Below, in pieces: positions 31,401-35,863 of a DNA stretch of 39,713 nucleotides; position 1 is the first letter of the stretch; each line of letters begins with the position of its first letter. This DNA comes from Ferruginibacter sp. GTDB lineage: Bacteria; Bacteroidota; Bacteroidia; Chitinophagales; Chitinophagaceae. The translations under genes were made by a program, and so were the position numbers. The DNA lies in assembly GCA_025352525.1 (NCBI GenBank), contig JANXTG010000052.1, positions 1 through 39,713 of the forward strand, in the 5' to 3' direction. A model generated the notes under the pieces. The model was not told the origin of the DNA, did no database searches, and saw nothing but the letters and a program-made list of their open reading frames with translations.

Positions 31401-31428
31401 TTGTTTAATTTTTCTTTAAATATATTTG
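31401..31428 (+). promoter_or_regulatory. Promoter of the phosphosulfolactate synthase gene
   Basis: TTG at 31401-31403, exactly 17 bases, then TATATTTG at 31421-31428, an exact -7 match: the best Bacteroidota-type promoter in the window. The transcript would start near 31432, 30 nt before the ATG at 31462. Confidence 0.8.
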
Positions 31429-31461
31429 CGGCTTAACTTAAAGATTACTAAATATTTCACT

Positions 31462-32226
31462 ATGAATTTCAATCTTTCTCAAATGCCGGAACGTTCTGCA
31501 CAACCACGTGTTAACGGACTTACAATGGTAATGGATAAAGGCCTAAGTATAGAAGAGGCTAAAAATTTTATGAGTGTTGCTAGCCCCCATGTAGATATAG
31601 TAAAACTGGGTTTTGGTACTGCTTTTGTTACGCCAAATTTAAAAGAAAAACTGGCTGTATATGCTGCCAGCAACATACCGGTATATTTTGGCGGAACATT
31701 GTTTGAGGCATTTTTAATACGCAATCAGTTTGATGATTTTGTAGCAGTGTGTAATGATTTTGGTATAACTACTATCGAAGTAAGTGACGGTTCTATTACT
31801 ATACCACACACAGAAAAATGTGGATACATAGAAAAACTGGCAAAAAACTTTAAAGTTTACAGCGAAGTTGGTAGTAAAGATGCTGCCCATATTATTCCTC
31901 CATATAAGTGGATAGAATTGATGAGTGCCGAACTAAGTGCAGGTGCCAGTTACGTAATTGCTGAAGCCCGGGAAGCTGGAAATGTAGGTATTTACAGAGG
32001 CAGTGGAGAAGTGCGTGAAGGATTGGTACAGGAAATTCTTACACAGATACCCGCAGAGAAAATTTTGTGGGAAGCTCCGCAAAAAGCACAACAACTTTAC
32101 TTTTTAGAACTCATAGGTTGCAATGTCAATCTTGGTAATATTGCACCATCTGAAATGCTTGCTTTAGAAGCAATGCGTATTGGTTTAAGGGGAGATAGTT
32201 TTGAATTTTATCTGGATAAAAAATAA
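31462..32226 (+). CDS. Phosphosulfolactate synthase (ComA-like)
   Basis: 254 residues from the ATG at 31462; a TTG at 31426 overlaps the -7 box and is rejected. The family adds sulfite to phosphoenolpyruvate to form (R)-phosphosulfolactate, first known from methanogen coenzyme M synthesis. The TIM-barrel motifs are intact: VDIVKLGFGTAFV, PVYFGGTLFEAF, IEVSDGSITI, VYSEVGSKDA, AEAREAGNVGIYRGSGEV, WEAPQKAQQ, NVNLGNIAPSEMLALEA and RIGLRGDSF. In Bacteroidota the destination of the product is not clear; sulfolactate or another sulfonate are possible. No other sulfonate gene is visible in the window. It is monocistronic with a clear promoter. Confidence 0.9.
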   Translation: MNFNLSQMPERSAQPRVNGLTMVMDKGLSIEEAKNFMSVASPHVDIVKLGFGTAFVTPNLKEKLAVYAASNIPVYFGGTLFEAFLIRNQFDDFVAVCNDFGITTIEVSDGSITIPHTEKCGYIEKLAKNFKVYSEVGSKDAAHIIPPYKWIELMSAELSAGASYVIAEAREAGNVGIYRGSGEVREGLVQEILTQIPAEKILWEAPQKAQQLYFLELIGCNVNLGNIAPSEMLALEAMRIGLRGDSFEFYLDKK

Positions 32227-32444: not shown

Positions 32445-33182
32445 ATGAAATTATTTGGTCTAATTGGTTATCCACTCGGTCATTCCTTTTCAAAAAAATA
32501 TTTTGATAAAAAATTTAATGATGAAAATCTGGATGACTGCATTTTTGAATTATTTGCTATAAAAGATATCAATGAATTTCATAAACTTACTGAAGAAAAT
32601 ACCAATTTAAAAGGTCTTGCAGTAACCATTCCATACAAACAAAGCATACTACCATTTATTAATTATGTGTCCGTTGCTGCAACAGAAATTGGAGCAGTAA
32701 ACTGCATAAAATTTACTGATTGTAATACAACAGGTCATAATACAGATGTTGTAGGTTTTGAAAAATCTTTGATTCCTTTACTACAACCGCATCACACAAA
32801 AGCTCTTGTGTTAGGTACAGGAGGTTCATCTAAAGCAGTACAATATGTTTTAAAACTATTGAAGATTGATTTTTTATTGGTTAGCAGAGACAAAACTAAT
32901 ACCCAAGATTGTATTGCTTACAATGATATTGACCAAAAAATAATGGCTGAATATTCTATTATTATCAATTGTACCCCGATAGGTATGACGCCAAATGAAA
33001 ATGCTATGCCTGCAATTCCTTATGAACTGCTTTCGGCAAATCACTTGCTTTATGATCTTATATACACACCTGAAAAAACGCTCTTTTTAAAAAAAGGAGA
33101 ATTGAAATACTGTACAATTAAAAATGGTTTTGAAATGCTTATAATACAGGCAGAAGAAAACTGGAAAATATGGAATGCCTAA
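32445..33182 (+). CDS. aroE: Shikimate dehydrogenase
   Basis: Reduces 3-dehydroshikimate to shikimate with NADPH in the cytosol (chorismate pathway). 245 residues, on the short side as usual in this phylum. Motifs: IGYPLGHSFSKKYFD (substrate-binding Ser-x-Ser retained; the common PxxHN is replaced by KKYFD), LAVTIPYK with catalytic Lys65, INCI-like AVNCIKF (Asn86), HNTDVVGF with Asp101, the Rossmann GTGGSSKAV, NCTPIGMTPN, and the C-terminal NGFEMLIIQAEENW. The last 4 bases overlap the stop of the convergent thioesterase gene (33179-33182). Confidence 0.94.
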   Translation: MKLFGLIGYPLGHSFSKKYFDKKFNDENLDDCIFELFAIKDINEFHKLTEENTNLKGLAVTIPYKQSILPFINYVSVAATEIGAVNCIKFTDCNTTGHNTDVVGFEKSLIPLLQPHHTKALVLGTGGSSKAVQYVLKLLKIDFLLVSRDKTNTQDCIAYNDIDQKIMAEYSIIINCTPIGMTPNENAMPAIPYELLSANHLLYDLIYTPEKTLFLKKGELKYCTIKNGFEMLIIQAEENWKIWNA

Positions 33183-33616
33183 TTTATAAAACTTAAAAGC
33201 TGAGCAAATTTTTCAGGTATTTCACGAACTTTTTTTTCTTCGTAATTGAAACAAACCATTCCAGTTTTGGCTTTCGCTATCAATATATTATTTGCGTTTC
33301 TGTTTACATGAATGATATAATATAATTCAAAGCCCGCTTTGCTAATTTCTCCTACAGCAATTTCAATTATCAATAAATCTCCATAAAAAGATTCTCCTTT
33401 ATATTCCACAGCAAGGTCAGCCATTATTAGTGAGGCTCCTTCAATATTTAATTCTGTGTAATTTTTGGAAGTAAGCCATTGTACTCTGGCTTCGTGTAAT
33501 ATGCGCACGAGAGCATCATTACCTACATGGTTGCCATAATTAATATCAGTTATTCTAACTGCAATTTCTGTGGAAAAGATTTTGCGTTCAGGTATTAATA
33601 ATTTAACTCTCGCCAT
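33179..33616 (-). CDS. Acyl-CoA thioesterase, hot-dog fold
   Basis: 145 residues, ATG at 33616. The 4HBT-type pattern is VRITDINYGNHVGNDALVRILHEARVQWL, with Asp/Asn (DINYGNHVGND) at the position of the 4HBT active-site residue, followed by the beta-sheet (ADLAVEYKGESFYGDLLIIEIAVG) and GMVCFNYEEKKVREIPE. It is probably a cytosolic acyl-CoA or acyl-ACP thioesterase with unknown substrate. Its start overlaps the 3' end of rdgB by 14 nt, so the two are translationally coupled. It also overlaps aroE tail to tail. Confidence 0.82.
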   Translation of the reverse strand: MARVKLLIPERKIFSTEIAVRITDINYGNHVGNDALVRILHEARVQWLTSKNYTELNIEGASLIMADLAVEYKGESFYGDLLIIEIAVGEISKAGFELYYIIHVNRNANNILIAKAKTGMVCFNYEEKKVREIPEKFAQLLSFIN

Positions 33617-34190
33617 TGTAATTATTTAAAAATTTAATTAATTTTTGCAGTGCTTTTTTTCTATGGCTGTACTTACTTTTTTCGTCCATGCTCATATCGG
33701 CAAAACTTTTATCTGCGCCATCAGGCATAAAAACCGCATCGTAACCAAACCCCATACTTCCTGTTTCTTTGCTGTTTATTTTGCCTGTGCAGATACCGGT
33801 GAATAAATATTCTTTGTTGTTTAACAGCAAACAAATGACTGTTTTAAATTGTGCATTTCTTTCATCTATTCCTTCCATATTTTTTAAAAGCAATGCAATA
33901 TTTTTTTTGTTGTCGGCCTCATCGCCTGCATAGCGTGCACTTTTTACACCCGGTTTTCCATTCAATGCAATCACTTCAAGGCCTGTATCTTCACTAAAGC
34001 AATCTTGTTTTGTAATACCAAATATTACTGTAGCTTTTTCTCTTGCATTTTCTTCCAAAGTATCAAATGGTTCATCAATTTCAATGTTAATTCCCGCCTC
34101 GATTAACGTTACAATTTCTAATCCTTGGGTTAACGCCGCTTTAATTTCAGCAATTTTATTTTGATTGTTTGTAGCGAATATTAATTTCAT
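33603..34190 (-). CDS. rdgB: XTP/dITP diphosphatase (RdgB/HAM1)
   Basis: Hydrolyses dITP, XTP and ITP to monophosphates, keeping deaminated purines out of DNA and RNA. 195 residues. Motifs: FATNNQNKIAEI with the T-N-N-x-x-K start (Thr7, Asn8, Asn9, Lys12); FDTLEENAREKA; FSEDTGLEVIALNGKPGVKSARYAGD with metal-binding Asp68; GSMGFGYDAVFMPDG; and SHRKKALQKL at the C-terminus. All are intact. It is the middle gene of a three-gene operon: 9 nt after the psi-like gene, and overlapping the thioesterase gene by 14 nt. Confidence 0.96.
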   Translation of the reverse strand: MKLIFATNNQNKIAEIKAALTQGLEIVTLIEAGINIEIDEPFDTLEENAREKATVIFGITKQDCFSEDTGLEVIALNGKPGVKSARYAGDEADNKKNIALLLKNMEGIDERNAQFKTVICLLLNNKEYLFTGICTGKINSKETGSMGFGYDAVFMPDGADKSFADMSMDEKSKYSHRKKALQKLIKFLNNYNGES

Positions 34191-34199
34191 AAAAGGTTA

Positions 34200-34745
34200 T
34201 CAGATTGAAAATATTTTTTTTAATGCAACCCAAAGTTGTTTTTTCTCTTCTTTGTCAGCCGACAATTTTTGCAAAGACGGGGTACATAAATATTGTTGTT
34301 TGTTGTAAGCCTGCACCTGGTACATTGGTATTTGTACAGGAAAACCAAGTGCTTGTGGCTCTGTACCGATAAATAGTATGGTTGATGGTGTAAAGGTTTT
34401 AATCAGTTTTTCATAAACAATATTATCATTACCATAACTGTTTACCAATGCTGCATCTGCCATCGTTACATTGCAGGCGCTAAGTATATTCATTAAAAAA
34501 CTCAGTTCATCATCTCCCAAAAATTTATGGTCTTTTTCATCTACAACTATTAAAATATTCCTGTTATTTTTTCCTAAATATTTAATTGAATATTCCTCAT
34601 TTGTATAGGCCGCAATACTTTTTTCAGAATCAATGTTTTTTACAATTTGTGCTTTTTCATCATTAGCGAAGGATGATATAACCAATGTTTTTTCATACAT
34701 TTTTTTTACTAAAAAAGGAGATAGTTTTATATCGTCTAAGCTCAT
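34200..34745 (-). CDS. Psi-subunit-like protein (HolD-like), otherwise hypothetical
   Basis: 181 residues, ATG at 34745, no signal peptide. From memory, its layout matches E. coli HolD: an N-terminal tail LDDIKLSPFLVKKMY (compare psi LQQLGITQWSLRR), a strand NRNILIVVDEKD, a helix DELSFLMNILSACNVTMADAALV (compare VSDVLRALTVSPDQVLQL), a later FIGTEPQALGFP (compare LGTDEPLSL), and a C-terminal TPSLQKLSADK (155-165) then LWVALKKIF (171-179), compare SPALTDLRANP and ALWQQI. Psi bridges DnaX of the clamp loader to chi/SSB. If correct, this protein would bind the clamp loader. It is the first gene of the operon with rdgB. An unrelated Rossmann-like protein is the alternative. Confidence 0.6.
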   Translation of the reverse strand: MSLDDIKLSPFLVKKMYEKTLVISSFANDEKAQIVKNIDSEKSIAAYTNEEYSIKYLGKNNRNILIVVDEKDHKFLGDDELSFLMNILSACNVTMADAALVNSYGNDNIVYEKLIKTFTPSTILFIGTEPQALGFPVQIPMYQVQAYNKQQYLCTPSLQKLSADKEEKKQLWVALKKIFSI

Positions 34746-34798: not shown

Positions 34799-35863
34799 AT
34801 GATTGCTGCTGCAGATTTTAATATAACCAAGATGGAGAGAAGTAAGCTAAACGATATCAATCTTGATAATATTCCTTTTGGAAAATACATGACAGATTAC
34901 ATGCTTGAAGTAGACTATGAGAACGGCAAATGGCAAACACCGGAAATTAAGCCTTACCAACCGTTGTTAATGGCTCCGTCTCTTGCAGCTATACACTATG
35001 GACAATCTATTTTTGAGGGCGTAAAAGCTTATAAAAATGCTGATGGTGAGCCATATATTTTTAGACCGTTAGATAATTTTAAAAGATTTAATAAATCTGC
35101 TGAAAGGATGCAGATGCCTACGATACCTGAAGAGATTTTTATAGATGGTATGAAGCAACTTATTAAACTTGATATTAACTGGATACCTGCAAAAGACGAA
35201 CATTCTCTTTACATCCGTCCTTTTATGTTTAGTACCGATGAGACTATTGGTGTTAAACCAAGCGAAAATTATAAGTTCATGATTATTCTTAGCCCAACAG
35301 GACCTTATTATTCAACCCCAATGCGTATTTATGTAGAAGAACAATATGTGCGGGCAGTACCCGGTGGAATTGGTTTTGCCAAAGCAGCCGGCAACTATGG
35401 AGGATCTATGTTCCCTACAGCACAAGCCAAATTAAAAGGTTATGACCAGGTTTTATGGACTGATGCTTTTGAACACAAATATGTGCAGGAGTGTGGTACT
35501 ATGAATGTGGTATTCATCATTGGCAATACGGCAGTTACACCCGATTTATCTACCGGAACAATATTAGACGGCGTAACAAGGGACAGCGTAATAGTGTTGC
35601 TCAAAGAAATGGGTTTAACTGTAGAAGAGCGGCCATTGAATATTGACGAAGTTATTGAAGCACATAAAGCAGGAACATTAAAGGAAGTTTTTGGTACGGG
35701 AACAGCTGCAACTGTTTCTTTGATAAAAGAGTTGCGTTATAAAGATTATGTAATGGATTTTGAAGTTGAGAAATGGGAGGTTGCACCGAAAGTTAAAAAG
35801 ATGTTGAACGATATTCGTTACGGTAAAACAGCAGATAATAATGGTTGGATGATGAAATTGTAA
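34799..35863 (+). CDS. ilvE: Branched-chain amino acid aminotransferase
   Basis: Transfers the amino group between glutamate and the 2-oxo acids of valine, leucine and isoleucine, PLP-dependent, cytosolic. 354 residues of the longer, class II-like bacterial/mitochondrial-type form. Motifs: FEGVKAYKNADGEPYIFRP; SLYIRPFMFSTDETIG; GGIGFAKAAGNYGGSM with PLP-Lys195; QVLWTDAFEHKYVQECGTMNVVF; and GVTRDSVIVLLKEMG, ending with a GTGTAATVSLI segment. The ATG at 34799 sits close to a TTTCTTTG (34774-34781) that is one base away from the -7 consensus. It is divergent from the psi-like operon. Confidence 0.95.
   Translation: MIAAADFNITKMERSKLNDINLDNIPFGKYMTDYMLEVDYENGKWQTPEIKPYQPLLMAPSLAAIHYGQSIFEGVKAYKNADGEPYIFRPLDNFKRFNKSAERMQMPTIPEEIFIDGMKQLIKLDINWIPAKDEHSLYIRPFMFSTDETIGVKPSENYKFMIILSPTGPYYSTPMRIYVEEQYVRAVPGGIGFAKAAGNYGGSMFPTAQAKLKGYDQVLWTDAFEHKYVQECGTMNVVFIIGNTAVTPDLSTGTILDGVTRDSVIVLLKEMGLTVEERPLNIDEVIEAHKAGTLKEVFGTGTAATVSLIKELRYKDYVMDFEVEKWEVAPKVKKMLNDIRYGKTADNNGWMMKL

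Follow-up and report, generated by a model that had tools for sequence, protein, structure and literature searches.

In the passages of a 2012 review on which we draw (PMC3290774), chi is given for alpha-, beta- and gammaproteobacteria and the clamp-loader subunit psi (HolD) for gammaproteobacteria only, which is in line with the remark of a first-pass annotation, made from the DNA sequence alone, that psi is not known to be reported in Bacteroidota. The part of a 2011 study used here (PMC3197488) describes genomes that encode chi with an apparently conserved psi-binding site and have no detectable psi; it also reports that Pseudomonas psi binds single-stranded DNA (ssDNA), a property attributed partly to the N-terminal region of the protein. 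Among the matches listed in a search of the open-access literature, no title or beginning of an abstract connects psi with Bacteroidota or with a glycosylase.

The window (the whole stretch of DNA analysed, a 39,713-nucleotide contig of Ferruginibacter sp.) carries a small gene for which the first-pass annotation had proposed identity with psi. We conclude that this gene probably encodes a psi-superfamily protein which is a dead descendant of a family 4 uracil-DNA glycosylase (UDG4) and would most likely serve as an accessory subunit of the clamp loader. By sequence comparison and structure prediction, the protein is composed of a short N-terminal segment, a variable linker and a core that is homologous to both psi and UDG4, with the glycosylase positions lost. 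We regard it as a variant within the psi superfamily; the origin of psi itself from UDG4 is the bolder claim.

The gene and its neighbourhood

The 181-amino-acid ORF is a real, conserved gene, with matches at E <= 0.001 in 61 of 149 genomes from its order, a figure that includes the genome of the window itself. The features of the gene, of its product and of its neighbours are listed in Table 1. The gene rdgB, which the first-pass annotation had named as operon partner, follows on the same strand after a gap of 9 bases and is found inside the fetched flanks at 36 of 50 order-level loci. The divergent aminotransferase gene, for which we assume the name ilvE, is found there at 39 of 50 (the window's own locus is counted in both figures). 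Adjacency to rdgB weakens at the class level, where it was seen at 2 of 8 loci outside the order. Beside the Bacteroidota relatives of the gene, rimI was seen at 0 of 50 loci and dnaB at 0 of 58. A clear ComA-type phosphosulfolactate synthase gene also lies in the window, in a Bacteroidota genome.

Table 1. Positions of the gene, the parts of its product, neighbouring genes and related proteins (window coordinates unless a locus is named)
Feature	Position	Strand	Remarks
psi/UDG4-superfamily gene	34200..34745	(-)	181 aa, intact ORF, ATG start
N-terminal segment, residues 1-28	34662..34745	(-)	model; short helices, block pLDDT 57-78
Linker, residues 29-60	34566..34661	(-)	mostly low confidence; length varies among relatives
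Alpha/beta core, residues 61-181	34203..34565	(-)	uracil-DNA-glycosylase-like fold without catalytic motifs
Helix and strand, residues 78-102, containing FLMNILSACNVTMADAALVN	34440..34514	(-)	core match to psi and UDG4
GTEP loop, residues 127-130	34356..34367	(-)	after strand TILFI; aligns with psi GTDE
C-terminal helix K..LW..LK, residues 165-179	34209..34253	(-)	
rdgB (Ham1 family)	33603..34190	(-)	downstream neighbour, same strand; PF01725 9.9e-59
Thioesterase-like gene	33179..33616	(-)	overlaps rdgB end; PF13279 1.1e-19
Aminotransferase class IV gene (ilvE-like)	34799..35863	(+)	divergent neighbour; PF01063 2.8e-28
ComA-type phosphosulfolactate synthase gene	31426-32226	(+)	PF02679 6.3e-89
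UDG4-like proteins, motifs lost	L280 2455-3174, L281 2498-3217, L282 2455-3198	(-)	f38, one genus

Likeness of the family to psi

Of 50 frames of the family, 36 were aligned (A1); the other 14 (L010, L012, L017, L022, L028, L172, L173, L175, L176, L178, L180, L182, L183 and L186) were left out because of long linkers, lack of an in-frame ATG or near-duplication, or because they were judged too divergent. Psi sequences were fetched best first and 20 weaker ones were added; 10 of the 56 psi frames lie outside A3 (L116, L139, L140, L145, L147, L149, L154, L155, L163 and L164).

The top match of the window protein among 24736 Pfam models was psi (PF03603, E 0.0086), with a score of 16.7 bits that falls below the cut-off of 22.2 bits, and no NCBIfam model was matched at E <= 1. 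The profile search proposed by the first-pass annotation thus gave psi as best hit, but not, for the single sequence, a passing one. Across the family, PF03603 was matched at E <= 1 by 20 of the 36 aligned members (the window protein counted; best 4.3e-5) and by 6 of the 14 others (best 2e-4), that is by 26 of 50, the remaining 24 having no such match. Any other family was matched by at most two members: the other Pfam families listed for the aligned set have one member each, and outside it two of 14 match PrpR_N, while L028 also matches LpxB (4.7e-4). The three NCBIfam families matched by more than one of the 36 members are all psi models (7, 3 and 2 members), and a fourth psi model gave the best E-value (4.3e-4). 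In a scan of the phylum, in which the PF03603 control was positive only in E. coli, a single one of 296 genomes (G081) has a relative above the PF03603 cut-off (22.9 bits, E 1.1e-4); it is the orthologue beside rdgB and the ilvE-like gene. Separately, a contig titled Chryseobacterium sp. 18061 (L069) was seen to carry a holD of the Enterobacteriaceae kind, whose product shares 73% identity with psi of E. coli; this record is probably mislabelled or contaminated.

Comparison of profiles by hhalign gave 97.9% for the family against 25 psi sequences and 97.7% against 46, over 92-93 core columns, and 97.65% in a separate comparison of trimmed cores. Reversed profiles in four pairings did not exceed 0.33%, and when the columns of the psi profile were shuffled 100 times the highest value was 0.92%. 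The alignment pairs LMNILSACNVTMADAALVN over VSDVLRALTVSPDQVLQLT, FIGTEPQ over RLGTDEP, and TPSLQKL...KKQLWVALK over SPALTDL...RAALWQQI. The line-up of core residues with psi that had been drawn by eye is therefore reproduced, except that the window has TPSL and not SPSL, and that its GTEP loop pairs ungapped with GTDE rather than in the form GT(D)EP. In the C-terminal helix, all 36 aligned members have K168 and W172. When 95 rows were aligned jointly, the Trp was present in 36/36 family members, 26/26 psi and 27/30 UDG4, and the Lys position held K in the 36 members, K or R in the 26 psi and K in the 30 UDG4.

Might this similarity be mere coincidence, a short motif arising by chance in a small protein that evolves fast? 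The weak single-sequence scores, the members without a match and the shortness and divergence of psi as a family speak for such a reading, which is nevertheless highly improbable: psi recurs as top match across members, and the clean controls by shuffling, by reversal and with unrelated families (see below) largely refute it. Psi also diverges fast where it is known: at E <= 0.001, PF03603 detected it in no more than 7 of 143 genomes from the class of E. coli and in 65 of 119 from the order. Sequences in the PDB were searched with an HMM of the 36 members, and E. coli psi was not found at E <= 10. The TALE repeats that make up 28 of the 30 PDB-sequence matches listed were rejected as relatives; these matches add up many repeats that lie below the threshold, and none passes as a single stretch.

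The N-terminal part behaves differently from the core in these comparisons. The first-pass annotation had read a psi-like tail there; the psi tail motif (L..MGI..W type) is present in 0 of 36 members and the two tail profiles match at 0.5%, which is noise, so that the resemblance of the tails is not supported. The tail profile of the family against those of Bacteroidota UDG4 gave 13.8%, within noise (up to 15.4%). No chi exceeded the PF04364 cut-off in 148 Bacteroidota genomes; two weak sub-cut-off matches, from one genus, were discarded because they lie inside long frames that resemble DEAD-box helicases by eye.

Compared with HolD (PF03603; 1em8_B, 3sxu_B), the family is thus alike in the helix-strand-strand-helix order of the core, the GT(D)E loop, the C-terminal K/R..LW helix, the N-terminal segment followed by a linker of variable length, and the small size. 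It differs in lacking the psi-type tail motif, in the lack of chi over the cut-off in the phylum searched, in a core about 20 residues longer than that of E. coli psi and closer to glycosylases in fold searches, and in its neighbours, which are rdgB and the ilvE-like gene rather than rimI. The psi reading therefore stands for the core and does not for the tail, the chi partner and the rimI neighbourhood. The evidence supports placing the core with PF03603 psi and so bears out the first-pass proposal in part; the window protein is better called a psi-superfamily relative than strictly HolD.

Kinship with family 4 uracil-DNA glycosylases

The AF2 model of the window protein (pLDDT 85.9) was compared with known structures by Foldseek. 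All 17 matches at E <= 0.001 were UDG4/UdgX-type uracil-DNA glycosylases (against the UDG4 1ui0, E 5.7e-6 with a TM of about 0.5), and no psi chain was among the best 50 of 981 rows. A model of an E. coli-type psi retrieved three psi chains, the matches after these having E-values of 0.2 or more, with no UDG among the best 50 of 487 rows. A confident match to another family, which the first-pass annotation had counted against psi, was hence found in part, the model having the fold of family-4-type glycosylases; because UDG4 itself is related to psi, as set out next, this match widens the psi reading and does not refute it.

UDG4 sequences were fetched with TIGR00758, taking the best-scoring 30 each from other Bacteroidota groups and from E. 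coli's class, and were trimmed to the core, tail excluded. By hhalign, the core of the window family matched UDG4 of Bacteroidota at 94.1% and UDG4 of E. coli's class at 88.7%; for psi the two values were 92.1 and 88.6%. Unrelated controls (UNG, RdgB, thioesterase, IlvE and RimI) stayed at or below 1.73% against all these sets. Column shuffles, which covered three of the four family/psi-UDG4 pairings, reached 3.6% for the window family with Bacteroidota UDG4, 1.7% for psi with Bacteroidota UDG4 and 19.1% for psi with UDG4 of E. coli's class, in the last case with a score of 25.9 against 40.9 observed. Since the core profiles of psi, window family and UDG4 all match, the psi and the glycosylase readings of the window protein are one. 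On these profile comparisons we take psi to be related to UDG4, with the window family lying with psi, and psi looks like a dead UDG4.

The family resembles UDG4 (TIGR00758; 1ui0, 1l9g, 4zby) in fold, in the motif LL..ILKA..L..EDV.I.N (LL..ILKA..L..EDVYI.N in the form common to residues 78-102, psi and UDG4) and in K...W..L. It differs in the loss of GE.PG..ED, of HP and of two Fe-S cysteine positions: in one automatic alignment of 95 rows the family has the aligned D column of GE.PG..ED empty in 36/36 members and A, S, T or P in the HP His column in at least 31/36. Fe-S scoring covered two of the cysteine columns, other than those of the first two cysteines, and in both the four commonest letters are other residues. 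TIGR00758 has no match at E <= 0.001 in the window's genome, nor is it among the NCBIfam families listed for the 36 members.

These data could also be read in terms of a dead UDG4-like protein that stays outside the clamp loader: a factor that binds DNA or bases and acts with RdgB on non-canonical nucleotides, and whose likeness to psi would merely reflect a shared glycosylase ancestor. The close and recurrent association with rdgB within the order, a fold search that returns glycosylases and not psi, and the lack of a psi-type tail and of chi over the cut-off all fit such a factor. We consider it unlikely, given that the profile similarity of the trimmed core to psi exceeds that to either UDG4 set, that the catalytic and Fe-S positions are lost, and that adjacency to rdgB is weaker at class-level loci.

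In Bacteroidota, too, the window family and UDG4 alternate among genomes. The family was found in 35 of 296 genomes, none of which is among the 106 of 148 over the UDG4 cut-off; of the 35, 12 appear in the UDG4 scan without a match and two (G253 and G271) with a sub-cut-off match, the rest lying outside the genomes listed. Bacteroidota UDG4 (L250-L279) is near dnaB at 22 of 30 loci, near coaBC at 11 and near rpoZ at 8, the window family instead being near rdgB. These UDG4 begin with a conserved segment of their own (..Q.E.FGD.L..), possibly a tether peculiar to them. In the three f38 genomes (G271, G179 and G160), a UDG4-like protein without the motifs lies beside dnaB, coaBC and rpoZ (3/3; gene identities by Pfam in L280). 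Its matches to TIGR00758 have E-values between 2e-9 and 1e-8 and miss the cut-off by far; those to PF03167 score 18.3, 24.5 and 24.1 bits, at or under the cut-off of 24.3, and it is matched by the window-family profile in G271 alone (6e-4). This protein looks like an intermediate, and it may be an independent step toward a psi-like protein.

The strongest evidence for a link between psi and UDG4 comes from E. coli's class, where UDG4 were picked for an intact GE.PG..ED motif. These enzymes start with the clamp-loader peptide of psi (e.g. LQRQYLKEMGIDVWQRRE in L306). The psi tail motif was found in 26 of 30 UDG4 and 41 of 46 psi, where shuffles predict about 0.1. Among 754 heads of other ORFs it occurs in 6, five of these being psi genes outside the set (UDG4 heads ran from the beginning of the open frame up to the first motif; psi heads covered 40 residues, and those of other ORFs 60 residues from the first M). 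A match of 98.2% between psi and UDG4 tail profiles is given no weight as evidence, since the motif itself had served to choose the UDG4 segments. The gene rimI, which is beside holD in E. coli record annotations and encodes an acetyltransferase by Pfam, adjoins psi at 34 of 37 loci (the better-scoring ones) and UDG4 at 23 of 30; it was beside UNG, MUG and other UDG at 0 of 29. In all loci checked (33/33 psi, 23/23 UDG4) it is downstream on the same strand, and it was also present at 18 of 20 further, weaker-scoring psi loci with short flanks. Among 114 genomes of the class, 82 have UDG4 over the cut-off, 92 have chi and 75 both, so that 75 of the 82 UDG4 genomes have chi; five genomes are PF03603-positive, three of them with chi, and 0 of the 82 UDG4 genomes is among these. 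From the genome, tail and rimI counts together it follows that a single locus holds either psi or a live UDG4, both with one kind of tether, and that the genomes concerned usually have chi. On sequence grounds, the tethered UDG4 is therefore a candidate for the 'missing' psi. Within the 114 genomes (class of G429), 14 were noted that have chi without PF03603 psi or UDG4 over the cut-off; these may have either a further-diverged psi or chi without psi.

Descent and possible role

The descent of psi was analysed in trees of 95 rows (36 family members, 26 of 46 psi, 30 of 60 UDG4 and 3 bridge proteins). With all psi constrained to stay together, the best tree found exceeded the unconstrained quick tree by 7.3 log units (p-AU 0.644). 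Trees in which each psi was joined to its local UDG4 scored worse, but the AU test does not reject them (p-AU 0.17 and 0.125). When the quick tree was rooted at its midpoint, three psi (L119, L120 and L121) fell on its UDG4 side. Between one and several origins of psi the tree and AU tests do not decide. That psi arose repeatedly, the Bacteroidota family and the psi of E. coli's class being separate dead ends of two local UDG4 lineages that converged on one shortened core, is possible if somewhat doubtful: the f38 protein would be a third motif-less UDG4-like form, at the Bacteroidota UDG4 locus, tails match inside E. coli's class and not across phyla, and the placement of the three psi points the same way. 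The better score of the tree that unites psi argues against repeated origins, although long branches could pull psi together and the alternative trees stand. Because this question concerns descent, either answer is compatible with a psi-superfamily protein derived from UDG4.

As to mechanism, residues 1-28 are, by position only, a candidate tether to the clamp loader. This segment would bind DnaX at the collar, as that of psi does in E. coli, and the core would act as an adaptor bridging the clamp loader to a partner at the fork, SSB or ssDNA. With no chi over the cut-off in 148 Bacteroidota genomes, contact with SSB, ssDNA or another partner would fall to the core itself. For Bacteroidota the tether is the weakest step. 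Binding of ssDNA by Pseudomonas psi, despite its partial attribution to the N-terminal region, fits a glycosylase ancestry. In E. coli's class, one scaffold is seen in two states at the same rimI locus, as an intact UDG4 or as psi, either of them with the psi-type peptide. We are inclined to think, on balance, that a replisome equipped with its own uracil-scanning enzyme gave rise to psi by loss of the chemistry, perhaps several times and once in the Bacteroidota line of the window.

The uracil-DNA glycosylase D4 of vaccinia, which we take not to be a family 4 enzyme, offers a parallel to the window family for which no homology is claimed. In the A20-D4 processivity factor, according to the passages of PMC1936997 used here, a glycosylase fold is a structural part of a replication complex independently of catalysis; D4 differs from the window protein in being viral, in binding A20 and in having kept its enzyme activity.

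If the proposed relationship is true, psi gains an origin and the glycosylase-like core of a clamp-loader subunit is explained, and psi would extend to Bacteroidota. A UDG4 with a psi peptide at the psi locus would be a concrete candidate for the missing partner of chi, and a physical link between uracil repair and the clamp loader would be predicted for many bacteria.
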